The notes beneath the pieces were generated by a model. That model saw only the letters and a list, made by a program, of their open reading frames with translations. It had not been told where the DNA came from and did not search any database. A stretch of 64,000 nt of DNA from Deltaproteobacteria bacterium (lineage in GTDB: Bacteria; Myxococcota_A; UBA796; GCA-2862545), in contig REDI01000041.1 of assembly GCA_007693595.1 (NCBI GenBank), positions 124,001 to 188,000 on the forward strand, read 5' to 3'. A program made the translations under genes and the position numbers. Of the stretch, positions 10,724 through 32,807 are shown piece by piece; position 1 is the first letter of the stretch, and every line of letters starts with the position of its first letter.

Positions 10724-10795
10724 GGGCGGATAGCTCAATGGGAGAGCGCCGGCCTTACAAGCCGGTGGTTGCAGGTTCGAGTCCTGTTCCGCCCA
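10724..10795 (+). tRNA. tRNA-Val (TAC)
   Basis: Acceptor stem GGGCGGA/TCCGCCC, anticodon stem CCGGC/GCCGG with anticodon TAC at 10756-10758, and T arm GCAGG-TTCGAGT-CCTGT. Discriminator A10795; no CCA encoded. A tRNA-Asp follows 13 bases on. Confidence 0.97.
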
Positions 10796-10808
10796 TTGAC
10801 TCAGACGA

Positions 10809-10885
<77 letters not shown>

Positions 10886-10890
10886 TTCAC

Positions 10891-10930
10891 AGACGCCCAC
10901 CCGGCACGCTCGGGTGGGCGTCTCTTCTTT
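10891..10930 (+). terminator. Rho-independent terminator after tRNA-Val/Asp
   Basis: A perfect 13-bp stem (10891-10903 with 10911-10923) closes a 7-base loop and is followed by CTTCTTT. It is the strongest intrinsic terminator in the window and lies five bases after tRNA-Asp. Confidence 0.9.
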
Positions 10931-11032
10931 GGTGCCCTCTCACTTCATCCGTTCGACCTGTCTCTCGCTGACGGGCCTCGATCGGCGCACTGGCGGTTCG
11001 AGGGCTTCACCCAAGCACCCGGAGGACTGCGT

Positions 11033-11860
11033 ATGACGGTCGTGTCGACGGGCTTCTTCGGGGCATGGTTCCTGGGGCTGGTTCAGGGACTTACCGAGTT
11101 TCTGCCGGTCTCCAGCTCAGGCCACCTCGTCCTCTTTCAGCAGTTTTTTCCTATCGACGGAGACGATGTCTTCTTCGATCTGATCCTCCACGTCGGCACC
11201 CTGCTGCCCGTACTCTGGTTCTATCGGCGCGACGTCTCGATGCTGGCCTCCGATCCCCTGGTGGGCCGGGGACCCTTCCTTCGACGCGAGGGGGTCCGCC
11301 TCGCGGGCCTGCTGCTCCTGGCGACGATCCCGACCGGGATCATCGGCGTGGTCTTCAAGGATGTCTTCGAGCTCTGGTTCTCAACGCCCGCGGTGCTCAC
11401 CTTGACCTTCGCGGTCACGGGCACCCTGCTCTTTCTCTCGAGCCGGTTCAAGGGCGCGGGCTTCGGGCTCCACCAGATGGCCTGGTGGCACGCGATCGTG
11501 CTCGGGCTGGCGCAGGGCTTCGCCATCACGCCAGGCATCTCCCGCTCTGGAACGACGATCGTGGTGGCGCTGGCCTTGGGGCTGGCTCCGATGGCGGCGG
11601 CTCGCTTCTCCTTCCTGATGAGCGTTCCGGCGATCCTGGGCGCGGTGGTGCTCAAGCTCGATGATGCGGACCTCACCTCGATGGACCTCGGGGCCCTGAC
11701 CCTCGGGGGGCTCACGGCCACGGCGAGCGGGTATGCCGCCCTGGTCTTGCTCGTGCTGGTGGTGAAGCGCCGCCGGTTGGCTAGCTTTGCATGGTACTGC
11801 TGGGCGATGGCCGTCGTCTCGGGGCTGCTGGCGCTGTGGGCTCTGCTCGCGCCGGCTTGA
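11033..11860 (+). CDS. uppP: Undecaprenyl-diphosphatase (UppP/BacA)
   Basis: This integral membrane enzyme of 275 residues dephosphorylates undecaprenyl pyrophosphate, recycling the lipid carrier for peptidoglycan and other envelope polymers. Both family signatures are present: the Glu-containing GLTEFLPVSSSGH near the N-terminus (about 20-32) and PGISRSGTT in the middle. Multiple hydrophobic helices cover the whole length. A clear GGAGG lies upstream of the ATG. The gene is monocistronic between tRNA units, and its stop codon is embedded in the -35 box of the tRNA-Trp promoter. Confidence 0.97.
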   Translation: MTVVSTGFFGAWFLGLVQGLTEFLPVSSSGHLVLFQQFFPIDGDDVFFDLILHVGTLLPVLWFYRRDVSMLASDPLVGRGPFLRREGVRLAGLLLLATIPTGIIGVVFKDVFELWFSTPAVLTLTFAVTGTLLFLSSRFKGAGFGLHQMAWWHAIVLGLAQGFAITPGISRSGTTIVVALALGLAPMAAARFSFLMSVPAILGAVVLKLDDADLTSMDLGALTLGGLTATASGYAALVLLVLVVKRRRLASFAWYCWAMAVVSGLLALWALLAPA

Positions 11861-11885
11861 CCGCGACCCGCCGAGCCCATATGAA
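11857..11885 (+). promoter_or_regulatory. Promoter of tRNA-Trp, overlapping the uppP stop
   Basis: -35 TTGACC (11857-11862) contains the uppP stop codon TGA; after 17 bases comes -10 TATGAA (11880-11885). The predicted transcript would begin a few bases before the tRNA at 11897. Confidence 0.6.
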
Positions 11886-11896
11886 GCACCTGCTCT

Positions 11897-11969
11897 AGGG
11901 GTATAGCTCAGTTGGTAGAGCAGCGGATTCCAAATCCGCAGGTCGAGGGTTCGAGTCCTTCTGCCCCTG
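11897..11969 (+). tRNA. tRNA-Trp (CCA)
   Basis: Acceptor stem AGGGGTA/TGCCCCT, D arm TAGCTCAGTTGGTAGAGCA, anticodon arm GCGGA-TTCCAAA-TCCGC with anticodon CCA at 11930-11932, and T arm GAGGG-TTCGAGT-CCTTC. Discriminator G11969; no CCA encoded. Confidence 0.97.
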
Positions 11970-11985
11970 TGCGACTCCGTCGACG

Positions 11986-12946: not shown

Positions 12947-13501
12947 ATGCGCTACACTGGGGATGTTCTTGGAGGATGTGTGGTTGTTCTACTCTGGCTC
13001 TACCTCTCGCTCTTCGCCCTGGCCGACGAGCCGCCCAAGGTCGATGCCAACCTCGCGACCGAGTACGAGCTCGCAGCGGTTCCGGGACTGGGACCGGCCA
13101 AGGCGAGGGCCATCGTCAAATATCGTCTGAAGCACGGACCGTTCCGACGGGTGAACCAGCTCGAAAGGGTCTCCGGGCTGAGCCTGAACACGGTGAAGAA
13201 GCTCGCCCCCTACCTCGAGGTCGGCGATTTCAAAGAAGCCAAAAAGGCCATCAAGCAGCAGCGCATCGACGCGCCGCCCTACTCGGGCCCGGTCATCGAC
13301 ATCAACACCGCCGATGTCCACCAGCTCGGCCAGCTCCCAGGGGTCGGTCCCACCAAGGCGCAAGCCATCTTCGACGACCGCGAGAAGCGGGGTCGATTTC
13401 GGAAGTGTCGATCGCTGGAGCGGGTGACGGGCATCGGACCAAGCACCGTGGAACAGTTGATGGAGGCCTGCGAAGCGGGCAGGCCTGAACGCGATCGTTG
13501 A
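12947..13501 (+). CDS. Exported ComEA-like protein with two helix-hairpin-helix modules
   Basis: The 184-residue product begins with a hydrophobic signal peptide (cleavage likely after FALA, about residue 27). Two helix-hairpin-helix DNA-binding modules follow, each with the LPGVGP-type hairpin: VPGLGPAKARAIVKYR (about 43-58) and LPGVGPTKAQAIFDDR (about 128-143). Each is followed by a second hairpin segment (VSGLSLNTVKKL and VTGIGPSTVEQL). ComEA-type proteins bind incoming DNA in the periplasm during natural transformation, but HhH exported proteins also occur without competence genes. The ATG at 12947 is chosen because it opens the signal peptide; upstream codons overlap the divergent cvfB. 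The next gene, 67 bases on, also has an HhH domain. Confidence 0.8.
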   Translation: MRYTGDVLGGCVVVLLWLYLSLFALADEPPKVDANLATEYELAAVPGLGPAKARAIVKYRLKHGPFRRVNQLERVSGLSLNTVKKLAPYLEVGDFKEAKKAIKQQRIDAPPYSGPVIDINTADVHQLGQLPGVGPTKAQAIFDDREKRGRFRKCRSLERVTGIGPSTVEQLMEACEAGRPERDR

Positions 13502-13568
13502 TGGATGACCTCCGCTTGGGGTAGGCTGCGGTCCGGTCGGTCGTGTGCATGCGCGGCGTGGAGGCGGA

Positions 13569-15803
13569 GTGAGTCAGAAGCTTCAGGTGGCCGCGCGTGG
13601 CTGGCTACTGGCAGCGGGGCTTTTCGTGGGGGCCAACCTGCCCGCGCACGCCGAGATCTACACCGTGCCGATCATCATCGACTCCGAGGACGATCTCTTC
13701 GATCTCTTCGAGAACGGGGACATCTCGGAGTCCGAGATGGATCTCCTGATGGAGCTCTACCAAAAAAAGGTGGACCTCAACCGCGCGACCCGCGATGAGC
13801 TCTACGAGCTGCCCGGTCTGACCTACCCCATGGTCGATGCCATCTTGCAGTTTCGTCGTGAGAAGGGCGACATCAAAGATGTACGCGAGCTCGAGAAGGC
13901 GGGGGCTGTCCCCTACATCGTCATGAAGCAGATGGAGGCCTTCGTCCTCTATGGGCGGCCCAAGCTACAGCTAGACGCCCCGGTGCACGGAAGCGTGCGG
14001 CTCAAGACCTTGTACCAGCCGATGTCCGCGGGTGGGGTCGGGGTCGACGCCGGTAGCTTCGACGAAGGAGGCGGAGGGGGCTTTGATGTCTCCAACATTC
14101 GTCGCTCGCCCTCCGTCGCGCTGCGCTCGCGGATCACCGCCATGGGCGGGCGCCTGGATGCGAGCTGGACGATCTCGGGTCGAGACCTTCCCGGTCGGCT
14201 CAACCTCGCTGGGACTCCAGATAATCCCTACTACATCGCGGATTCACCCCGGTTTCGTCTCGAGCCGCTCCGCAAGGCCTACGCGATGTATTCCGCCGAT
14301 CTGGGGGATCAGGGGCGCGGTCAAGTGGTCGTAGGAACTTACAACGCGGGCTTTGGTGAGCGGCTGACCTTCGACAGCACGAACCGGCGCCGCCCTTATG
14401 GTCTGTACGGTGACGACCTGATGTTCGATAACGTGGGGGGACTTGGTCGCTTCAACTCGGACTTTCGGGTTCACCGTGGCCTACAGGGCGTGGCGGGCTC
14501 GGTGCAGCAGCTCCCGGTGGCCGGGCGCATCACCCTCGACACCACCGGCTTCCTCTCGATGCGTGCTGTCGACGAGTACATGTACCGCTACCGGCCCAAT
14601 CGGACCTACTTCAACGAAGAGGCCGCCGCAGGGGGTGAGGCGCGCTGTACGGCCGAGGGCCGCTGCCACTCCTTCGAGACCTTCCGCGACGTCTACGTCC
14701 ATCAGGTTGGTGGCGGAAATATGCGCTTGAACCTGGGCTCGCGCTCCTATATCGGCTCTACGGCTTATGCGGCTCGAAACTACTTCACCGAGGGCGATGA
14801 GGTGGTGAACTTCGCCCCCGCGGCCCGGCAGCCCGTCCGCCGCAGCTTCGGCGCCTTTGGTATCGAGGGGGCCTACGGTACAGGCATCTTCGATCTCTTT
14901 GGCGAGTTCACGGTCACCGACCGTGGGGCACCCGCGGCCTTGATCCGGACCCTCTACGATCTGAAGCCCGTCGCGCTCGAGGTGACGGGTCGATACTACG
15001 ATAAGGGCTTCGACAACCCCTTCAGCCGCGGCGAAGCCTCCGCGGGTCAGTTCCTCGGTATGAGGGCCCGCGACGAGGCTGGGCTCAAGGTTCGGGCCGA
15101 AGGGCGTCCCGCCCGGTTCTGGCGCTTCATCGGGCATGTCGACAGCTGGATCCACCCCGCTCAGGAGCGCCATGACCTCGAGTTCTTCATGCGCCATGAG
15201 TTCGACCTCAGTCGAAAGGTGCGGCTGTCGGGGTGGGTCCGCTACTTCGACAAGGACATCTGGGTCGGGGGGCGCGATCAGGACTACATTCGCAGTCCCG
15301 TCGTCAACTACGACGACATCTACGACGAAGACGACCCCGACTTCGCCATGGAAGAGCTCCGCGCTTCTCGCACCGATCTGGCTCGGGGGCTCCGCAAGGA
15401 GTTCGGCAATCAGATGCGATGGCAACCTTCCAAACGCTTTCTGCTCACCGCTTATGGTCGGATGGTGTGGCGTGACGTCTCCGTCTACGACGAGTCCTTC
15501 GAGCGCAACGTCTCAACGTGGATCCGAGGCTCCTATAAGCCGGTACCTTGGCTCGATCTGTCCAGCCGTGTCCGGTTCTGGGACGACGACATCGACACCA
15601 TCGCCGAGGATCGCTCGGGCGACGGCGTGCTCGACTTTCGTAGAGGTAACGCCTTTCTCGAGGTGTATGGTCGGGTCGCCGTCTCGCTGCCCAAGCGTCT
15701 CCGGGGCAGCTTCCGGTATGACGTTCGCACCTTTACCGACGTGAAAGTTCGCGATCGCGATCCCGAGCACCTGCTGCGCTTGACCGTCGAGGCCTTCTTT
15801 TAG
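13569..15803 (+). CDS. Putative outer-membrane beta-barrel protein with N-terminal helix-hairpin-helix domain
   Basis: The 744-residue product has a signal peptide (cleavage after PAHA, about residue 28). A single HhH domain (about 60-125) contains VDLNRATRDELYELPGLTY, the ComEA-like arrangement. About 600 residues follow, rich in alternating aromatic/hydrophobic beta strands with frequent RY, RF and WxR motifs. The sequence ends in Phe-Phe, as expected for a barrel recognised by the Bam complex. The GTG at 13569 follows GGAGG closely (four bases); a GTG at 13545 is in frame but lacks a site. Large HhH plus barrel proteins are found, uncharacterised, in other Gram-negative phyla. Co-orientation with the exported double-HhH gene suggests they act together on DNA or on another envelope ligand. 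The barrel prediction is inference from strand pattern. Confidence 0.65.
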   Translation: MSQKLQVAARGWLLAAGLFVGANLPAHAEIYTVPIIIDSEDDLFDLFENGDISESEMDLLMELYQKKVDLNRATRDELYELPGLTYPMVDAILQFRREKGDIKDVRELEKAGAVPYIVMKQMEAFVLYGRPKLQLDAPVHGSVRLKTLYQPMSAGGVGVDAGSFDEGGGGGFDVSNIRRSPSVALRSRITAMGGRLDASWTISGRDLPGRLNLAGTPDNPYYIADSPRFRLEPLRKAYAMYSADLGDQGRGQVVVGTYNAGFGERLTFDSTNRRRPYGLYGDDLMFDNVGGLGRFNSDFRVHRGLQGVAGSVQQLPVAGRITLDTTGFLSMRAVDEYMYRYRPNRTYFNEEAAAGGEARCTAEGRCHSFETFRDVYVHQVGGGNMRLNLGSRSYIGSTAYAARNYFTEGDEVVNFAPAARQPVRRSFGAFGIEGAYGTGIFDLFGEFTVTDRGAPAALIRTLYDLKPVALEVTGRYYDKGFDNPFSRGEASAGQFLGMRARDEAGLKVRAEGRPARFWRFIGHVDSWIHPAQERHDLEFFMRHEFDLSRKVRLSGWVRYFDKDIWVGGRDQDYIRSPVVNYDDIYDEDDPDFAMEELRASRTDLARGLRKEFGNQMRWQPSKRFLLTAYGRMVWRDVSVYDESFERNVSTWIRGSYKPVPWLDLSSRVRFWDDDIDTIAEDRSGDGVLDFRRGNAFLEVYGRVAVSLPKRLRGSFRYDVRTFTDVKVRDRDPEHLLRLTVEAFF

Positions 15804-22449: not shown

Positions 22450-25400
22450 CTAGAGGCTCTCGAACTCGATGTCTTCGTCAAGGGCGGCGTCGATGCCCAG
22501 GTGGCGCATCCAGGGTCGAGCTCGGAAGCTCCGTTCCAGCTCTTCGGACAGGCTACTGGTGAACTCGCTGACCAGCTCCTTACCGACCGCTCGATGGGTC
22601 TGGGCCTCGTCTTCGTCGCAGAGATCGGCGAGCAAGGCGCGAGCCTCGAGCGAGATGAGCCGAAGCCCCCGGCTGCCCGCGGTCTGGAGGACGCTCCGAG
22701 CCAGGCGTTGGGCTGTGGAGCGGTCCCCCGCAGCCTGATAGGCACGAGCCAAGGCGAGCTCTACCTGAGTTCGGCGGGGCACGGGGAGCTCCTTCAGGCT
22801 GGCCTCGGCGGTGGCCCGTTGCTCCTCGTGGGCGGCTCGGTCGCTGCTCGCGAGGGCGTGGGCTAGGATCGCCCGAGCTAGCGGCTGAAAACGCTCGGGA
22901 TCGGCCCGATCATCGGCGTTGAGGGCCTCACGGGCACACCGTGCGGCGTGGGCGGGCTCGTCGGTCTCGAGGAAGAGCTGTGCGAGGAGGGTCTCGCAGG
23001 CGAGGACCTCGTCGTCGAGCCCGATCTGACGGGCCAGTAAGAGCGCTTCGACCAGACACTCGCGGGCGTCGCTGTGTCGTCCAAGGTCGAGCGCTGCCAT
23101 CCCCATCGCCCGCTGGGCTGCGACACGACCCAGCTTGTAGTCGAGATCGGTCGCCACCTGGGCGGCGATGTGGGCTCGCTGACGCGCCTGCATGGGTTGC
23201 CCCTGCCAGGTGAGGAGCTCAGCCAGGTTGGACAGAGCCAAGACTCGGTTCCGCTTTCGGCGAAGCTCGCGGAAGATGCTCTCGGCTTCGGTCAGGCCAG
23301 CGGTGGCTGAGGCGAGCTGCCCGCGGGTCGCTTGCGCGGCAGTGAGCGCGAGGAGCAGCTCGGCCCGCTGGGAGGCGAGCTCGCTGCCACGGGCGACCAA
23401 GAGGCCCTCGTTCGACAGCCGCTCCACGTCGTCGAGCCGGCCTTCGAGCCAGGCCTGACCCGCCATACCGAGTAGGGCCTCCGCCACCCCCTCCCGATCG
23501 TGCAGACGCCGCGACTCGTCCAACGCCTTCTGGGCGAGCTCGGCGGACTCTTCAAAGATCTTCCGTCGGCGGAGCACCCGCGAGAGGTCCAGGCGTGCGC
23601 GGTTGGCGGCGCGGGCGTCGGAGCCGTCCTCGGCCAGCTTGAGCACGGCCCGATAGCAGGCCTCTGCCTCGCTCCAGTCGGCTCGATTGGCCAGGACCTC
23701 GCCGCGTACATCGAGCAGGTCGCGCCGAAAGCTCAGGAACTCGCTCTGCTCGAGATCGGCGAGGGCGGACTCTTCGATGGCGGCGGCCTTGTCGGTGAGG
23801 GACCAGGCCTCTTGGAGCAGGGAGCGGTCTCGAAGCCGACGGGCGGCCGCCACCAAGTAGCGGTAGGCTCGACCGGCGTCGCCAGCGCGCCGGTAGTGCT
23901 CCCCGACGATCTCGAGCGCTGCGGGGTTCTGCGCGTAGTGCAGCTCAAGGGCAGCCGCCATGCGGCGGTGCAGGTGGGCGCGACTGTCGGGGCTGAGATC
24001 GCGGTAGACGACATCGGCGAACTTGCGGTGACTCACGACGTAGAGGACCAGCTCTCCGGCTCGTCGCTCGCGGACGATTCCGGCCGTCAGCAAGCGCTCG
24101 ATGCTGTCGAGGACCCGGTCTTCGGACTCGTCGATGACGTCGAGCAGCACGTCGAGGTCGACCTCGCGTCCCGCCACGGCGAGGACCTCGAGCGCCTCGC
24201 GGTCGTCGGGCTCGATCCCCTCGAGACGGCTGCGCATCATCTGCCGGATCCCCAGGGGGATCTCGAGGTGACCCGAGGCGATCTCGTCGGGCTGGAGGAG
24301 GAGGCTCCCCCGACCGTCGGGACCCAGGCGCAGGATCCCTCGCGCCATGAGGGAGCGCAGGAACTCTACGACGAAGAAGGCGTTTCCTTCTGTCTCTTGG
24401 TGGAGCCGCTGCGCGAGGAGGCGGGCGAGGAGGTCCTCGTCGATGAGGCCGGAGATCATGCGGGTGAGGTCTCGGCGTGAGAGGGGTCCGACCGCCATGC
24501 GCTGCGGTTCGAGGCCGAGCTCGTCGCCCTCGGCGAAGACGTCGGCCGCGGGGCTCGCCTTATGGCGAAGCGTGGAGATCACGAGCAGGGCGTGCTGCTG
24601 GTTCACCAGGAGCGTTCGGACCAGGTAGGTGAGAAGCTCGACGAACCGAGGATGGGCGGAGTGCAGGTCGTCGATCAGGATGATCTGCGGCTGCTCGTCG
24701 AGCAAGGCGAGTAGGGCGTCTCGGGCGCCGTCGTACAGCGCGTATCGAGCGTGGGTCGGGCTTGCACCACTCTCTTCGAAGCTCTGGATCGCTTGGAGGA
24801 GGGGCGCTGGAGCCTCGCCGTCGAAGGCGTTGGCGAAGGACTGTGCCAAGGCGACGACGCCACCCGATGCGGTCTCGCCGCTCATGAACTCGAGGCTGTG
24901 GGTGCGGATGCCCAGGCTGCGTGCCCGATCCATGGCGACTGCCAGCAGCCGGGACTTTCCGCTCCCATCGTCGCCTTCGAGGACCAAAACCCCGCCTCGC
25001 CGCGCGGTGAGTCCGCTGATCGCGTCGGTGATGGACTCGACCTCGAGCTGTCGGCCGGTGAGCGGAGGCTCCCAGCCCCCTTCGACCGCCGGGACGACCT
25101 CGCGCTCTTCGGCTTCGAGGCGGTAGAGGATCTCTTGGGCGGACTGGTAGCGGTCTCGCTCGGATTTCTGGAGCAGCCGGCGACAGATCTCGTCGAGGTG
25201 CTCGGGGATCTGTCGGTTGATCTCGCGGGGGGCGGGGGCGGCGCGGTCGCGGTGCAAGGTGACGTAGCCGGCCATGTCCTTGGCGACGAAGGGACGCTTG
25301 CCCGTGAGCATGGCGAAGAGGATCACGCCGAGGCTGTAGAGATCGGAGCGGTGATCGATAGGCGCACCCGTGATCTGCTCGGGGGAGGCGTAGGCCCAGG

Positions 25401-26013
25401 TGCCGACCAGGGTGGTGGACATCATGAAGTCATCGGTGGGATCAAGATACTTCACGATTCCGAAGTCGGTCAGCTTCGCGACCCCTTCCGAGCTGATCAG
25501 CACGTTGCTCGGTTTGAGATCCCGGTGCACCAGACCTGATCGGTGAACGACTGAGAGGGCGCGGCAGAGGTCGATCAGGATATCCTCGACACGTCGCCAG
25601 CGGTCTTCAGGATCCCAGTTCCGGAACTGTCGTATCAAGGCGTGGAGATCGGGTCCGTCGACGTACTCCATGGCGATGTAGGGGTGTCCGAAGATGTCAC
25701 CGGAGCTCTCGACGCGCACGACGTTGACGTGATGAATGCGCATGAGGGCTCGGTACTCGCGGTTGAATCGCTTCAGGCCTGTCTTGAAGCGGGACCGTCG
25801 AAGGACCTTGAGGGCGACGAGCTGCTCGTTGGGATCCTTGGCGAGCAGGACCCGAGCCATGCCACCACTGCCGATCTCGCGCAGGAAGATGTAGTTGTCG
25901 ATCCTCGAGCCTGGGTGGATGATCACCCCCCCCATCTCGAGGGGCTCCTCGGTCTTGGGTCCGTTCGGCTGGCCGATCCGGGTACTACCGCCGTTGCGAT
26001 CGCTCGGGGACAT
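22450..26013 (-). CDS. Giant Ser/Thr protein kinase - AAA/STAND ATPase - TPR protein (paralogue 1)
   Basis: The 1187-residue product has a complete kinase domain (about 40-300): GSGGMA loop, Lys69 in VALKV, HRDLKPSN with catalytic Asp165, and DFG (183-185). An AAA-type ATPase follows with Walker A GDDGSGKS (347-354) and Walker B IILIDDLH (443-451). The rest (about 600-1187) is tetratricopeptide-like helical repeats. This PknK-like layout couples phosphorylation to an NTP-driven switch. The start is the ATG at 26013 with GGAG five bases upstream. It is the last of three tandem paralogues, 96 bases after paralogue 2. No membrane segment is present, so signalling is cytoplasmic. Partner substrates are unknown. 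Confidence 0.9.
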   Translation of the reverse strand: MSPSDRNGGSTRIGQPNGPKTEEPLEMGGVIIHPGSRIDNYIFLREIGSGGMARVLLAKDPNEQLVALKVLRRSRFKTGLKRFNREYRALMRIHHVNVVRVESSGDIFGHPYIAMEYVDGPDLHALIRQFRNWDPEDRWRRVEDILIDLCRALSVVHRSGLVHRDLKPSNVLISSEGVAKLTDFGIVKYLDPTDDFMMSTTLVGTWAYASPEQITGAPIDHRSDLYSLGVILFAMLTGKRPFVAKDMAGYVTLHRDRAAPAPREINRQIPEHLDEICRRLLQKSERDRYQSAQEILYRLEAEEREVVPAVEGGWEPPLTGRQLEVESITDAISGLTARRGGVLVLEGDDGSGKSRLLAVAMDRARSLGIRTHSLEFMSGETASGGVVALAQSFANAFDGEAPAPLLQAIQSFEESGASPTHARYALYDGARDALLALLDEQPQIILIDDLHSAHPRFVELLTYLVRTLLVNQQHALLVISTLRHKASPAADVFAEGDELGLEPQRMAVGPLSRRDLTRMISGLIDEDLLARLLAQRLHQETEGNAFFVVEFLRSLMARGILRLGPDGRGSLLLQPDEIASGHLEIPLGIRQMMRSRLEGIEPDDREALEVLAVAGREVDLDVLLDVIDESEDRVLDSIERLLTAGIVRERRAGELVLYVVSHRKFADVVYRDLSPDSRAHLHRRMAAALELHYAQNPAALEIVGEHYRRAGDAGRAYRYLVAAARRLRDRSLLQEAWSLTDKAAAIEESALADLEQSEFLSFRRDLLDVRGEVLANRADWSEAEACYRAVLKLAEDGSDARAANRARLDLSRVLRRRKIFEESAELAQKALDESRRLHDREGVAEALLGMAGQAWLEGRLDDVERLSNEGLLVARGSELASQRAELLLALTAAQATRGQLASATAGLTEAESIFRELRRKRNRVLALSNLAELLTWQGQPMQARQRAHIAAQVATDLDYKLGRVAAQRAMGMAALDLGRHSDARECLVEALLLARQIGLDDEVLACETLLAQLFLETDEPAHAARCAREALNADDRADPERFQPLARAILAHALASSDRAAHEEQRATAEASLKELPVPRRTQVELALARAYQAAGDRSTAQRLARSVLQTAGSRGLRLISLEARALLADLCDEDEAQTHRAVGKELVSEFTSSLSEELERSFRARPWMRHLGIDAALDEDIEFESL

Positions 26014-26109
26014 ACGCGCTCCGTGGGAGGGGGGAGCTTACCTCAGCCGGGGACCGCTGGACAGCCCGCGGCGGATCTGGTGGTATGGCAGGGATTTCGC
26101 GCGAGGTGC

Positions 26110-29100
26110 TCAGGCTGCCGGATCGCCGAGGCGGCGCGCGAGGAAGGCACCGATCTCGGCCGGTTGCTCGGTTCGGACACGGTCGAGGACCCGATCGAGG
26201 GTGTCGCGGATCCGAGGATCGGGATCAACGCGGGCGAAGAGCGCCAGCAGCTCCACCCGCAAGCCGTCGTAGCCCTCGCCCTCCATAGCGGACAGGCCAC
26301 GTTTAGCGGCGGTTCGCGCCGAGCCGGTGTCACCGGCCAGCCGGAGGGCTTCGCCAGCGTCGAGGCAGATTAAGACATGGCGGAGGATCACCCGTGGCGG
26401 GGTTCGGCGCAGGCACCAGTGCGCCAGCTCGACGGCGCGCTCGGGCTGACGTCGTGCGGTGGCGAGGGCGCGAAGCGCGCCGTGTTGTCCGCCGGGATCT
26501 TCGACGGGATCGGGGGTGAGCGCCAAGGGATCGGGAAGCACTGCGAGAACTTGATCGGGCTGGTCGAGCACCGCCAGGCACCGGGCCAGCCGCAGGCGCA
26601 AGGCCCCTGCGTTCGGGGGGTTGAGCCGGAGCCAGGTCGTCGCCTTGTCGAGCGCTTTGGCGCACTGAGCGGGCGGAGCCGTGCGCACCGAGACCTCGAG
26701 GAGGGTGAGCCAAGCCTCGGCCAGCCGGTGGTCGATCTCGGCGCGCTCGACCAGAGCGACGAGGGCCTGCGCCCTCCGCTTGGCTGTGGCGTAGCGTCCG
26801 GCCGCCAAGTCGAGCTCGACCGATCGCGAGAGCACCGCGGCGCGGACGCGGCTGTCGCCGCCGGAGTGGAGGAGGTTCTCGGCTCGCTCCAGATGAACCG
26901 TGGCGTCGTGGAGCCTCCCCTGCAAGATGCGCAGGTTCGAGATCCCGCGATGAGCGCGCGCCTTGGCGTCGCCGTTGCGCGCCCGCTGGAGCGCCTCGGC
27001 CCACAGCGACTCCGCCGCGTCGAGATCGTGGCTGCGGAGGTGAAGGTCGGCCAGCGCCCGAACCGATGCTGCCCGCTCGATCGAGGACTCAGGGAGGAGG
27101 GAGAGGGCCTCTTCGAGGAAGGGTCGCGCCGCATCGAAGGCCCCGAGCCGGTGGTGCGCGCGCCCGAGACCTGCCACGCTCCGGCCGATGGCGTCGGAGT
27201 CTTGCGAGAGGCGGGCTGCGGTGACGGCCTGGTGCAGCGAGGTGGTGGCGTCTTTCCAGCGCCCCTCGCTGAGCATGGCCTCACCGTGGAGGAGGTGGAG
27301 CTTGCATCGGAGCTCGACCGCGATGGTAGGGTCGAGGCTGCGCTCGGCGGCGGGGGCCAGTCGGAGCGCCCGATCCAGGTGCCGCAGGACGAGGTTCGTC
27401 TGTTGCTCGCGGGCGGCGTGGCGCGCGGCCTTGAGGAGGAGGGGATAGGCGGCGGCGGGCTGCCCGGAGGCCTCGTAATGGCGCGCCTGCTCTGCGTGGA
27501 GGCGAGAGCTGCGCCGTCCCCCGATCGCTTCAGCGATCGTGGCGTGCATGCCCATGCGACGCTTTGGGGGGATCCGCTCGAAGAGGGTGGTGTCGAGCCA
27601 GGGAACGGCGAAGGTGAGCCTGGGCTTGTCCGATTCGGAGCTGATCTGGCACAGCCCGGCTTCGACGAGTCGTTCGGCGGTGGAGGGGGCGGCGCCCGCA
27701 CATTGGCAGGCTAGATCGACCGAGGCGGGACGACCGATCACCGCGAGAAACTCCGCCAACCCCAGGGCCTCGGGGTCGAGCTGATCCAGACGCTCTTCGA
27801 GACGCTCTCGGACCATCGCGGGCACGGGCAGCGCACGCCGAGCGAGCTCCTTGAGCGGCAGGGTCGAGACCAGGCGCCCGTCCTCGCGCCGCAGCCATCC
27901 CGACCGCAGGAGCGCTCCGATCTGCTGATCGACCGCACCTGGAAGTCCACCGAGCTCCCGCAGAAAGCGCCGGGCCAACGCGGAGCCGGTGGTGCCGCGT
28001 AGGCCGCGATCGCGCAGCATGAGCTGGAGTGCCTCGCGGTCGAGCCCCTCGAGGGGGAGCCGCTCGGCGGGCAGTCCAGTGCTCTCTCCTTCGAGAAAGG
28101 GCTCGACCCCAGCGCCCCCCGTACGAGCCGTACACAAGACGAGCAGAGGCTCCACGTCGAGCACGACCAGCTTGTTCACAAGCCTGCCGATGGCTTCGAG
28201 CATGCGTGCGCTCAGCCGATCGACATCATCGATGCACAAGATCGTCGGCCGCCCCCGGACGGCCTGAGCCAGCCCGCGCAGGTGTTGCTTGGGGGGCTGC
28301 TCGGCCGCCTTGGGATCGAGCTCTCGGAGCAAGGCGGTGATGGGGTTCTTGGAGCTGGCATCGACCAGGGCGACCCGGATCTCGGCTTGTCGGGCAAGCT
28401 TCGCCAGCATCTTGAGCGTGAAGGAGCGGCCCATGCCGTCGGCGCCCGTGAGGGCGACCACCCCGCCGACCCCCTCCTGCAGGGCGCTGAGTCGCTCGCG
28501 AATGGTGGCGAGCAGGTCGTCGCGACCGCGCAGCGGAGGGACATCGGGATCGTCCTCGTCGTCGAGGGCGGCGAGCACGGCGCGGGCGCTGGGGAAGCGT
28601 TGGCTCTTCTCTTTGTAGAGGAGTCGCTGGCACACCGACTCGAGACGGCGGGGCACGTCGGGACGAAGCGCGCTGGGTGCAGGGGGGGTGTGGCTGAGGT
28701 GCCGGGCGAGGAAGCCTGTGATCGAGTCCGCTTCGATGGGCTTTCTTCCGGTGATCATGAGGTAGAGCACGGCGCCCAGGCTGTAGAGGTCGGTACGCGC
28801 GTCGACCGGCTCGTCGGTGATCTGCTCGGGAGCCATGAAGGCGATCGTGCCCACCAAGTTGCCGTGCATGGTCAGCGCGGTCGCGTTGGAGCGGTGGTCC
28901 TTGACGACCCCGAAGTCTGAGAGGTGAGGATTGCCCACCTGATCGATGAGCACGTTGGCGGGCTTGATGTCGCGATGGATCAATCCCCGGTCGTGGATGT
29001 GGGCCAGTGCTCCGCATAAGCCACGTAGGATCCGCTCGGCTCGCTCCCACTGGTCCTTGGGCGGCACCTCGCGCCAGGCCGCGAGCTCTTCGTCGAGGTC

Positions 29101-29397
29101 GCGGCCGTCGATGAGCTCCATGGCGATCCACGGGTAGCCATCTTCGATGCCGGTCTCGTAGACCCGCACGATGCAGGGGTGGTCGAGGCGCGCGAGCGCG
29201 CGGTACTCTCTTGTGAATCGTCGAACTTCATCGGTGCCGACGCTCGCGGGATGGAGGACCTTCACCGCGACGGGACGGCCTTCGTCGTCGGTCGCGCGAA
29301 AGACGGTCGCGTTGCCCCCGCGGCCCAGAGGCTCCCCGAGGCGGTAGCGGCCCACCCGCCCCCCCTGGCGCGGCCCCGTCGGCTGATCGTCGCTCAT
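26110..29397 (-). CDS. Giant Ser/Thr protein kinase - degenerate ATPase - TPR protein (paralogue 2)
   Basis: The 1095-residue product has an apparently active kinase domain: GRGGNA loop, Lys46, HRDIKPAN with Asp143, and DFG. Its ATPase domain differs from the two siblings: Walker A reads GADGMGRS (about 318-325), with Arg324 replacing the invariant Lys, while the Walker B-like TILCIDDVD is kept. ATP hydrolysis may therefore be lost while binding is retained. A long TPR-like region follows. The ATG at 29395-29397 overlaps the stop of paralogue 3 in an ATGA (29394-29397), indicating translational coupling. The ATG at 29409 is in frame but less likely. Confidence 0.88.
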   Translation of the reverse strand: MSDDQPTGPRQGGRVGRYRLGEPLGRGGNATVFRATDDEGRPVAVKVLHPASVGTDEVRRFTREYRALARLDHPCIVRVYETGIEDGYPWIAMELIDGRDLDEELAAWREVPPKDQWERAERILRGLCGALAHIHDRGLIHRDIKPANVLIDQVGNPHLSDFGVVKDHRSNATALTMHGNLVGTIAFMAPEQITDEPVDARTDLYSLGAVLYLMITGRKPIEADSITGFLARHLSHTPPAPSALRPDVPRRLESVCQRLLYKEKSQRFPSARAVLAALDDEDDPDVPPLRGRDDLLATIRERLSALQEGVGGVVALTGADGMGRSFTLKMLAKLARQAEIRVALVDASSKNPITALLRELDPKAAEQPPKQHLRGLAQAVRGRPTILCIDDVDRLSARMLEAIGRLVNKLVVLDVEPLLVLCTARTGGAGVEPFLEGESTGLPAERLPLEGLDREALQLMLRDRGLRGTTGSALARRFLRELGGLPGAVDQQIGALLRSGWLRREDGRLVSTLPLKELARRALPVPAMVRERLEERLDQLDPEALGLAEFLAVIGRPASVDLACQCAGAAPSTAERLVEAGLCQISSESDKPRLTFAVPWLDTTLFERIPPKRRMGMHATIAEAIGGRRSSRLHAEQARHYEASGQPAAAYPLLLKAARHAAREQQTNLVLRHLDRALRLAPAAERSLDPTIAVELRCKLHLLHGEAMLSEGRWKDATTSLHQAVTAARLSQDSDAIGRSVAGLGRAHHRLGAFDAARPFLEEALSLLPESSIERAASVRALADLHLRSHDLDAAESLWAEALQRARNGDAKARAHRGISNLRILQGRLHDATVHLERAENLLHSGGDSRVRAAVLSRSVELDLAAGRYATAKRRAQALVALVERAEIDHRLAEAWLTLLEVSVRTAPPAQCAKALDKATTWLRLNPPNAGALRLRLARCLAVLDQPDQVLAVLPDPLALTPDPVEDPGGQHGALRALATARRQPERAVELAHWCLRRTPPRVILRHVLICLDAGEALRLAGDTGSARTAAKRGLSAMEGEGYDGLRVELLALFARVDPDPRIRDTLDRVLDRVRTEQPAEIGAFLARRLGDPAA

Positions 29398-32300
29398 GGA
29401 CTCCCCCATCCGATCGAGAGGAAGGTCTCGCCCTCGTCGCGGGGAAGGCTAGCCGCCAGGGAGCGCGCCAGGGCAGACGCGACCCGGCGGTGGCGCGCTT
29501 TGGCACCGGGCTCCTCGACCGCTCGGGCCAGGGCGTGATGGGCGAGTAACTGGTAAAAGCGGTAGCCCGAGGTCTCGGCGGTCGAGAGCGCGCGGCGCAG
29601 GACCTCGAGGCTACGCTCAGGCGCCCCCAAGGCGATCCAGGCCTCCCCAGTGGCCAGATCGGTTCGGACCCGAACCAACGGCCAGGGCTCACGGTCGCTG
29701 GGCACGCGCTCCAGCTCTGCGCGAGCCCGCTCTTGGTGCTTGAGGCGGGCCAGCGCGAGGGCTCGCAGGGCTCGGACCATGGGGGCAACCCCCTCGGAGT
29801 CGAACTCGACCAGGAGCGGGAACAGCTGGTCGAGCACCTCGAGGGACGTGGAGAGGTCGCCCGTCTCGATCGAGATCCGGGCGAGGGTGACCAGGGCGGG
29901 GATCTCGTCCTCGCGGGCCTCGAGCTCGCTCGTGAGTCGGGCGGCCTCACGGGCGTCGCGCAGGGCCTCGTCGAGCCGGCCCAGATCGGCGAGGGCGCGA
30001 GCCCGGTGTGTCAGTCCGAGGGCGGTGCCGAGGGGGTGGTGGACCTCCCGCGCCTGGGCGAGGGTGATCTCGGCGAGGGTGAGCGCCTTCTTGAGCAGCC
30101 CCGTGGCGTGGTAGAGTTCGCAAAGGTTGACTCGGACGACCGCGAGCGGCGCAAGCATCCCTAGCCGCTCGAAGACTTCGGCGGAGCGCTCGAGCTGGCG
30201 GCGAGCCTCCATGGTCTGTCCGGTACAGATCGCGAGGATCCCCAGGCCGTTGTAGCCGAAGCCGACCGCGCGCTGGTCGTCGGCTGCCTCGGCCATCTGG
30301 AGGGATTGACGCCACTTGGCCTCGGCACCCTCGAGATCGCCCCGGGTCCAGTCTACCGCGCCGAGCTGGTAGAGGGGAGCGGTGCGAAGCGCGGGATCGT
30401 GGGCGGCGATCGCACGGTCCAGGGCCTTCTCGAGCCAGGGGCGGGCGGCCTCGCACTGACCGCGGTTGCGGAGCTGGTGACCGATCTCGGCCAAGGTCCG
30501 ACTTTCGAGGTTGGGATCCTCGATCAGCTCGGCGAGCTGGGTGGCGAGGCGGGCGGCCCGAAGCGCCTTCTCGGGCTGGCCGACCGCCACGAGGCACTGG
30601 CTACGAACCAGATGCAGCTCAGCCAAGGCGCGCTCTGCATCCTCGAGCACCAGATAGCGTCGCGCGCTCGGCTCCATGTGAAGGGCGCGGTCCAGATAGC
30701 CCAGCGCCTCTTCCCACAGGCTCGCCTGCACCCGCCGATGCGCGGTTCGGATCAGGTAGGCACAGGCCTTTGGAGCGATCCCTGCCTGCTCGAAGTGATG
30801 AGCGAGATCTTCGACGTGATCGTGGATGTCGCGGCGATGAAACCGTTCGATCGCTTCACCGAGTCGTTGATGCAGCGCCCGGAGCTCGTTGGGGGAGAGG
30901 GACTCGAGCAGGACGCCACGGAAGCGCTGGTGAGCCAGCTCGAACTGCTCGTCGCCTTCGCCTTGGGTCTCGTCGGCGATCCCCGCCTCGACCAGCTCGT
31001 CGACGGCTTCGAGGGTGGGCTCGTCGGCGAGGTCCACCAGCTCCGAGAGCAGCTCCAGCGCCACGTGACGACGGGACAGGGCGAGGACGACCGCGACCTG
31101 ACGGGCGCGTGGGCTCAGGGGCTCCAGCCGCTCGGTCAGGGCGTGTCGCAGCGAGGCGGGCATCGGCAGGCTGGAGCGCGTGATGTCGGCGGGATCGAGG
31201 GTGACGCGCCACGCCGGGCCGTCGCGGACCAGCAGGCCCTCGTCGGTGAGGGTGCGGAGCATGTCCGCGAGGTAGGCTGGGGAGCCATCGCTCTCGGCGT
31301 GCAGTCGTGCGGCCAGCGGGAGGGCGGTCTCGTCGTCGCGCACCAAGGTGAGGAGCAGCTCTTCGACCTCGTTGCGCTGCAGGGGCCCGAGGGTGTGAAT
31401 GTGTAGAGCCTCGACCTGCTCGAGTCGCTGCTCAAGGGCGGAAGTGACGCCCTCGTTGACCTCTTGGCTCAAGATGAAGGCGATCGACTCTTCGCTGAGC
31501 TCCACCGTGTTGCGGACCAGGTACTCGAGCATGTCGAGGGAGGCCCCATCGAGTTCGTGCAGGTCGTCGAGGATCACGACGAGGGGCGCTCTGGCGGTGA
31601 GTAAGGGCTTGAACGCGGCCAGCACGGGGTACCGCTCGCGGCTCGCTCCGACGGAGCCGGTGAAGGTTTCTCGGATGACCTCAGGGACCTCGTCGGGGGC
31701 TAGGGCGGTGAGTACGCGACTGAAGAGGCCGAAGGGGGGGTCATCGTGGCTCGCCTTGGCCCGGAGGACCGTGAGGCCATGACGCCGGGCCCGCGCCTCG
31801 GCCAGGTCCAGAACTCGGGTCTTGCCCACGCCGCCTTGACCCTGGACGAGGAGGGCCGCGCCTGGGCCCCCCTGCTCCAGCGAGGAGAGGGTCTCGCGGA
31901 GGCGGGCGCGGACCTGGGTTCGACCCACCATGCGCGGGGGCCAGTGCTCGGCTTGCTCGGTCGGCTCAAGGTCGCCGAGGAGGTGAAGGAGGTGTGCGGC
32001 CGACGCGAAACGGTCCGCGGGATCTTTCTTGAGCAGCCGCATGCAGACGTCGCTGAGCTGGCCAGGGATCCGAGGATCGAGCTCGCGCGGCGGCCTGGGG
32101 GTCTCGTGGAGGTGCTTCTCGAGCCAGCCCTGTAGCGAGCGCGCCTGGAAGGGGCGCTGGCCGGTGAGCATGGTGTAGAGGATCGCGCCGAGGCTGTAGA
32201 GGTCGGCGCGGGCGTCGACGGCGCCTCCCTCGATCTGCTCTGGGGCGATCCAGGCCGCGGTACCCATGATCTCGTGGACGCCAGTGAGCTCGGAGCCGAG

Positions 32301-32807
32301 CTCCTTGACCACGCCAAAGTCCATGAGCTTGACGGCCCCATCGGGTCGGACCATGACATTGCCCGGGGTGAGGTCGCGGTGAACGAGGCCCCGCTCGTGC
32401 AGGTAGTCGAGGGCGCGGAGGATCTGCACCAGCACGCCCTGGGTGCGGGTGAAGCGCTCGGCGTGCTCCATCCCGCGCCAGGACTCGATCTCAGCCTTGA
32501 GATCCCGGCCGGGCACGAGCTCCATGCTGTACCAGGGGCGCTCGCCCAGCAGCCCCCACTCGAAGACCCGCAGCACGTTGGGATGGTGCAGCTTGGAGAG
32601 CGAACGGAACTCTCGGCGGAAGCGGCTCCGGCTCTCGGCGCCAGGACCAAGCGGCCGCAAGACCTTGACGGCCACCTTGGAGTCGTCGCGGACGTCGCGT
32701 GCGGCGTAGACCGAGGCCATGCCCCCCTTGGCGATGAAGCGCACCACCTCGTAGGGCCCGAGACGGTCTCCGGCTCGGACATCTCCGGAACCGTCACCCT
32801 CGGTCAT
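29394..32807 (-). CDS. Giant Ser/Thr protein kinase - AAA/STAND ATPase - TPR protein (paralogue 3, first in the cluster)
   Basis: The 1137-residue product has a kinase domain with AKGGMA loop, Lys48, HRDLTPGN (Asp145; the usual Lys of HRDLKP is Thr) and DFG. An ATPase with intact Walker A GQGGVGKT (323-330) and Walker B VVILDDLHE follows, then about 600 residues of TPR-like repeats. It leads a unit of three tandem paralogues and is divergent from a PP2C phosphatase at 32927. The ATG at 32807 is chosen by analogy with the kinase N-termini of its siblings; ATGs at 32843 (with AAGGAG farther upstream) and 32870 are in frame, so up to 21 extra residues are possible. Substrates unknown. Confidence 0.88.
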   Translation of the reverse strand: MTEGDGSGDVRAGDRLGPYEVVRFIAKGGMASVYAARDVRDDSKVAVKVLRPLGPGAESRSRFRREFRSLSKLHHPNVLRVFEWGLLGERPWYSMELVPGRDLKAEIESWRGMEHAERFTRTQGVLVQILRALDYLHERGLVHRDLTPGNVMVRPDGAVKLMDFGVVKELGSELTGVHEIMGTAAWIAPEQIEGGAVDARADLYSLGAILYTMLTGQRPFQARSLQGWLEKHLHETPRPPRELDPRIPGQLSDVCMRLLKKDPADRFASAAHLLHLLGDLEPTEQAEHWPPRMVGRTQVRARLRETLSSLEQGGPGAALLVQGQGGVGKTRVLDLAEARARRHGLTVLRAKASHDDPPFGLFSRVLTALAPDEVPEVIRETFTGSVGASRERYPVLAAFKPLLTARAPLVVILDDLHELDGASLDMLEYLVRNTVELSEESIAFILSQEVNEGVTSALEQRLEQVEALHIHTLGPLQRNEVEELLLTLVRDDETALPLAARLHAESDGSPAYLADMLRTLTDEGLLVRDGPAWRVTLDPADITRSSLPMPASLRHALTERLEPLSPRARQVAVVLALSRRHVALELLSELVDLADEPTLEAVDELVEAGIADETQGEGDEQFELAHQRFRGVLLESLSPNELRALHQRLGEAIERFHRRDIHDHVEDLAHHFEQAGIAPKACAYLIRTAHRRVQASLWEEALGYLDRALHMEPSARRYLVLEDAERALAELHLVRSQCLVAVGQPEKALRAARLATQLAELIEDPNLESRTLAEIGHQLRNRGQCEAARPWLEKALDRAIAAHDPALRTAPLYQLGAVDWTRGDLEGAEAKWRQSLQMAEAADDQRAVGFGYNGLGILAICTGQTMEARRQLERSAEVFERLGMLAPLAVVRVNLCELYHATGLLKKALTLAEITLAQAREVHHPLGTALGLTHRARALADLGRLDEALRDAREAARLTSELEAREDEIPALVTLARISIETGDLSTSLEVLDQLFPLLVEFDSEGVAPMVRALRALALARLKHQERARAELERVPSDREPWPLVRVRTDLATGEAWIALGAPERSLEVLRRALSTAETSGYRFYQLLAHHALARAVEEPGAKARHRRVASALARSLAASLPRDEGETFLSIGWGSP

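Follow-up and report, generated by a model that had tools for sequence, protein, structure and literature searches.

Do two adjacent genes for exported proteins with ComEA-like HhH modules, one of them continuing into a predicted outer-membrane barrel, form an unusual route of DNA uptake or DNA binding in the cell envelope? An initial annotation of the window, the whole 64-kb stretch of DNA analysed here, had proposed this on the basis of sequence features. We thus asked what the two genes encode, in which company their relatives are found, and which role best fits both.

Two exported proteins with HhH modules

Open reading frames, export signals and HHH_3 matches bear out that two consecutive genes encode exported proteins, each with a ComEA-like HhH module:

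12947..13501, + strand: gene 1, exported double-HhH, ComEA-like protein, 184 aa from ATG (sequence, Pfam, NCBIfam, family relatives)
13037..13216 (contig C95 137037-137216), + strand: first HHH_3 unit of gene 1, 66.8 bits
13292..13459 (contig C95 137292-137459), + strand: second HHH_3 unit of gene 1, 64.8 bits
13569..15803, + strand: gene 2, HhH-like domain and outer-membrane beta-barrel, 744 aa, GTG start
13569..13652, + strand: predicted signal peptide of gene 2, 28 aa, cleavage between AHA and E (read from sequence)
13761..13943, + strand: degenerate ComEA-like HhH of gene 2, hairpin PGLTY, no G-x-G (38.9 bits and hairpin survey)
13977..15800, + strand: beta-barrel region of gene 2, ~24 strands, final Phe (models; start approximate)

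The gene 1 protein, which carries a hydrophobic export signal, is matched by PF12836 (HHH_3) in two units with 128 bits (cut-off 27) and passes TIGR00426, the ComEA HhH repeat, with 102.6 bits (cut-off 53.1), but misses the cut-off of TIGR01259, the comEA protein (115.8 versus 152.35 bits). It thus shares with ComEA the exported HhH units and canonical hairpins, yet consists of two such units without the remainder of ComEA. Both of its hairpins, PGLGP and PGVGP, read as canonical G-x-G, and the second Gly is present in 27 of 29 hairpins of gene 1 and its relatives. These relatives align at 37-48% identity across most of the protein and are present in about 11 of 20 further genomes from the family; most are acidic, while the gene 1 protein is basic, with a net charge of about +7.

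Gene 2 follows on the same strand after a gap of 67 nt, with a GGAGG ribosome-binding site 5' of its GTG. The only domain that Pfam, searched to E 1, and NCBIfam recognize in it is an HHH_3 unit (residues 65-114; 34 bits, cut-off 27), and the protein fails the cut-offs of both TIGR01259 (26.1 bits) and TIGR00426 (17.6 bits). In the barrel family the first hairpin follows the pattern P-[NGD]-[VILM]-[TDSN], the second hairpin Gly is kept in none of the 52 members where the hairpin could be located, and the mean net charge of the HhH segment is about -2.4, a few segments in this mean being misplaced. Since G-x-G is missing throughout these 52 and the segment is acidic on average, DNA binding by the barrel's HhH is doubtful as judged from its sequence. 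The original reading of both HhH modules as DNA-binding keeps its footing for gene 1, but is weakened for gene 2. Some exported HhH folds, such as PsbU and GspK, serve other roles, and both are found among the weaker matches.

A predicted large outer-membrane barrel

An AlphaFold2 model of the window's gene 2 protein with eight homologues, of low confidence (pLDDT 56.6, pTM 0.58), shows helices at residues 40-123, followed by ~24 strands up to the C-terminus, while the homologue L083 as query yields a better model (pLDDT 71.5, pTM 0.74) with 24 strands of at least 10 residues. The top structure matches of these models are membrane beta-barrels only (Foldseek, VIA-align): for the window model, Foldseek lists first MtrB of the Mtr complex and then TonB-dependent receptors, and for L083 the best solved matches are the usher pores FimD and PapC (VIA-align Z up to 17.0, 382 residues, rmsd 3.8). 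Because other barrels also score Z 13-14 against L083, we take this as evidence of an usher-sized barrel, not of kinship with ushers. Indeed, likeness to FimD and PapC is confined to the fold, a large outer-membrane barrel of 24 strands; gene 2 has no usher match in Pfam, and chaperone or pilin genes are lacking. The protein ends in VEAFF, and a final Phe is found in 47 of 56 barrel-family members. Altogether, gene 2 is predicted to combine the features of an outer-membrane barrel, namely a signal peptide, many amphipathic strands and a C-terminal aromatic residue, which upholds the proposal of a barrel that follows the HhH and ends in Phe.

Distribution and neighbours of the barrel family

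With the single sequence as query, gene 2 is matched in 10 of 58 related genomes, a count that includes the genome of the window, at 26-30% pairwise identity in the alignment, and ~50 columns are invariant across a close set of homologues. Profile searches of 377 genomes of the phylum return many more long matches, within a tally of 342 genomes that also counts matches restricted to the HhH part. Scanning genome contigs with the single protein gave no match, whereas an alignment-based scan gave eight loci, all from Myxococcota-type records; the named sources of homologues are Myxococcota, 'Deltaproteobacteria' and uncultured proteobacterium MAGs, and plasmids yielded no match. The barrel is without a model in Pfam or NCBIfam, and the part of the literature covered by our search does not describe the family. 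Other long HhH frames of the window's family, first taken for barrels, proved to be Tex-like or an HhH lipoprotein. A lipoprotein-like family of ~740 aa with an HhH match is present in several family genomes including the window's (L030:9254-11470, L164:5537-7765, L166:4892-7132, L171:6775-9000).

The link of the barrel family to DNA comes from the neighbours of its homologues. We examined 55 Myxococcota loci with a barrel of >500 aa, the window excluded, that were chosen by profile score and include close relatives, which are not independent. Genes around the long matches were called with a codon-usage gene caller written for this analysis, on draft contigs that cut several loci. Within three genes and on the same strand, an LTD gene is found at 45 of these loci, a nuclease-type gene (SNase, PLD or MBL) at 48 and both at 44, as scored with LTD, SNase, PLD and MBL profiles built from these same loci; Pfam checks, made on representatives, confirmed PLDc_2, SNase, LTD and Lactamase_B. 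Barrel and LTD are thus the constant members of a cassette whose nuclease slot is held by unrelated families (SNase, PLD, ComEC-like MBL). In many loci the LTD gene directly adjoins the barrel gene. Gene order varies: PLD, barrel, LTD in the window's taxonomic order; LTD, small SNase, barrel, in part preceded by a large SNase, in several families; and furthermore LTD, barrel, SNase as well as barrel, LTD, MBL. Two genomes (G031, G201) possess a PLD-type cassette in addition to an SNase-type one.

Among neighbour clusters within six genes, those recurring across distant families are LTD, small SNase, large SNase, PLD and MBL, and most others are limited to close relatives or belong to broad families, kinases among them. 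In 20 other HhH-match regions of the window's family, which served as a rough control, there was no LTD, PLD or SNase match. Six barrel loci are partnerless: L099, L108 and L127, which are cut by contig ends, and L096, L110 and L131, the last two of which contain long uncalled gaps. Fusions of SNase with LTD (L047, L111) and of PLD with LTD (L046) argue for a functional link between LTD and nuclease. The exported SNase-LTD fusions, one each, lie at L047:8954-9754 in the window's genome and at L111:3014-3832 near a barrel cassette.

The window copy and its genome

Against this background the window copy stands out, as its homologous HhH-barrel has no nuclease or LTD gene adjoining; LTD and PLD genes are located elsewhere on the contig, and the genome has three LTD matches in total. 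In a tree of 56 rows, PLD- and MBL-type barrels form one supported group and SNase types the other. The window protein sits with the SNase types, where it pairs with L096 (95/88) on a long branch of 1.09, and is not grouped with the PLD-type barrel of the family-mate G005. Since the tree pairs it with the partnerless L096 and not with G005, we regard the window copy as a solo offshoot, for which the sequences would allow transfer and old duplication as possible origins.

The idea that the pair is conserved together did not hold: no other barrel locus that we read has a double-HhH neighbour, and double-HhH relatives occur in other contexts. Because gene 1 relatives and barrel loci have separate surroundings, the window joins two HhH modules that are apart elsewhere. 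In several loci the relatives of gene 1 are preceded by the gene of an exported ComEC-like MBL (L154:865-2570, L155:6021-7855, L156:5339-7118, L159:5116-6773), in three of the four with a small DUF3006-type gene in between (confirmed as DUF3006 in L156, similar-looking in L154 and L155). The L156 MBL matches the ComEC/Rec2 model. A free-standing MBL of this type is absent from the window's genome, where the matches are ComEC itself and one weak one.

The statement that no ComEC or pilus gene lies nearby is correct for the neighbourhood, though not for the genome. The assembly measures 4.9 Mb and carries the pair on contig C95, ComEC on C32, DprA on C11 and secretins on C23 and C76, none of them near the pair; ComEC and secretin, considered as neighbours, are therefore ruled out. 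Contig C22 (L029) encodes a membrane-anchored protein, separate from gene 1, with two HhH units, which looks like an ordinary ComEA.

Discussion

What do these neighbours imply for the barrel? ExeM is an extracellular nuclease with LTD, OB-like and EEP domains (PMC6085458), an LTD-nuclease protein is part of proposed DNA-degradation loci (PMC8289736), and transformation of Riemerella anatipestifer requires the HhH protein RA0C_RS02645 and the predicted outer-membrane barrel RA0C_RS04915 (PMC8459023). As LTD is tied to extracellular nucleases, and HhH plus barrel to Riemerella transformation, the barrel family probably constitutes the outer-membrane part of the capture, degradation or uptake of extracellular DNA, where we infer both substrate and direction of transport. 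The known systems are parallels in part. ExeM/Xds-type LTD nucleases (PMC6085458) resemble the cassette in being exported, in combining LTD and nuclease and in targeting extracellular DNA, yet they are a single fused EEP nuclease without a barrel, whereas the cassette has mostly separate LTD and nuclease genes beside the barrel, and the window locus itself has neither. Likewise, the two Riemerella proteins are an HhH protein and an outer-membrane barrel, both essential for transformation there, but they are separate proteins encoded apart, likened to the window genes by description and not by homology.

We propose, tentatively and somewhat short of calling it probable, that gene 2 is a solo barrel of an unnamed Myxococcota family that originates from a DNA-handling nuclease/LTD cassette, and that it works here with the ComEA-like gene 1. 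In the cassette, LTD protein and exported nuclease would bind extracellular DNA on the cell surface and cleave it, and the barrel would let DNA or oligonucleotides into the periplasm, or hold the nuclease complex. In the window's genome, the basic ComEA-like protein encoded just 5' may hold incoming DNA in the periplasm, from where it could proceed to breakdown or to the ComEC encoded elsewhere; the basis for such cooperation of the two genes is their common strand and 67-nt spacing. DNA import, oligonucleotide import and display of a nuclease complex cannot be told apart from sequence. As such, the suggested uptake or binding route gains a link to DNA handling through the nuclease and LTD genes beside barrel homologues, but not through the window, whose 64 kb hold no transformation-specific neighbour of the pair. 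Two findings speak against our proposal: the window copy lacks a nuclease or LTD neighbour, and the HhH of the family is without G-x-G in all members scored. A bolder reading, which we consider unlikely, sees the family as an outer-membrane DNA conduit that needs neither pilus nor secretin, composed of an usher-sized 24-strand pore, LTD and interchangeable nucleases, with the double-HhH protein replacing these partners in the window.

A barrel beside nucleases could as well serve their export or display. The barrel would then bring the LTD protein and nuclease out to the surface, no DNA would be imported, and the HhH-like domain, which lacks the DNA-binding hairpin, would be a periplasmic docking site. 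The ushers among the best fold matches are secretion pores, and LTD genes are often the direct neighbours of the barrel gene. However, fold likeness proves no function, with other barrels at Z 13-14, the nuclease candidates come from different families and start with an ordinary export signal or in a lipoprotein-like manner, unlike a dedicated substrate, and no cargo of this kind adjoins the solo copy of the window, so that we consider this explanation rather unlikely. It is quite improbable that the family imports or displays while the window's copy has drifted to a non-DNA function next to gene 1 by chance. This would agree with the solo locus, the branch of 1.09 shared with L096, another solo member, the degenerate HhH and the occurrence of gene 1 relatives elsewhere, but the 744-codon frame is open and ends in Phe, ~50 columns are invariant in the close set, gene 2 follows on the same strand at 67 nt with a ribosome-binding site, and gene 1 itself is ComEA-like.

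Least of all do we expect ordinary natural transformation, in which a pilus-secretin-ComEC pathway would simply use gene 1 as its periplasmic ComEA, the barrel being an unrelated porin. ComEC, DprA and secretins are encoded in the genome and gene 1 passes TIGR00426, yet a further ComEA-like protein, which is membrane-anchored, is encoded in the genome (L029), the neighbours of gene 1 relatives are MBL genes and not pilus genes, and the barrel has its own ComEA-like domain and belongs to a family that tracks with nucleases.

Returning to the solo barrel of cassette origin, a cassette that keeps one barrel family while swapping its nuclease type is a testable candidate for two questions, namely how DNA gets across the outer membrane when no pilus secretin is involved, and what use Myxococcota make of extracellular DNA, which is apparently little described.

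Other features of the locus and its contig

A same-strand gene run at L046:8766-15877 (- strand; contig C95 ~42.8-49.9 kb, ~87-94 kb before the pair) encodes the PLD-LTD fusion, a PLD-like protein, an LTD-like lipoprotein, a barrel-like protein of 555 aa without Pfam match and two OB-like lipoproteins, and may be an LTD/nuclease system of this genome that uses another barrel. A sigma-70 promoter scan gave no hit and was uninformative. The G+C content of the pair, about 63%, is slightly under that of its surroundings (65-69%). Genes for tRNA-Val, tRNA-Asp and tRNA-Trp lie at window positions 10724-11970, 1-2 kb before the pair, and positions 22450-32807 (- strand) encode three long adjacent Ser/Thr kinase-like proteins of 1187, 1099 and 1137 aa.
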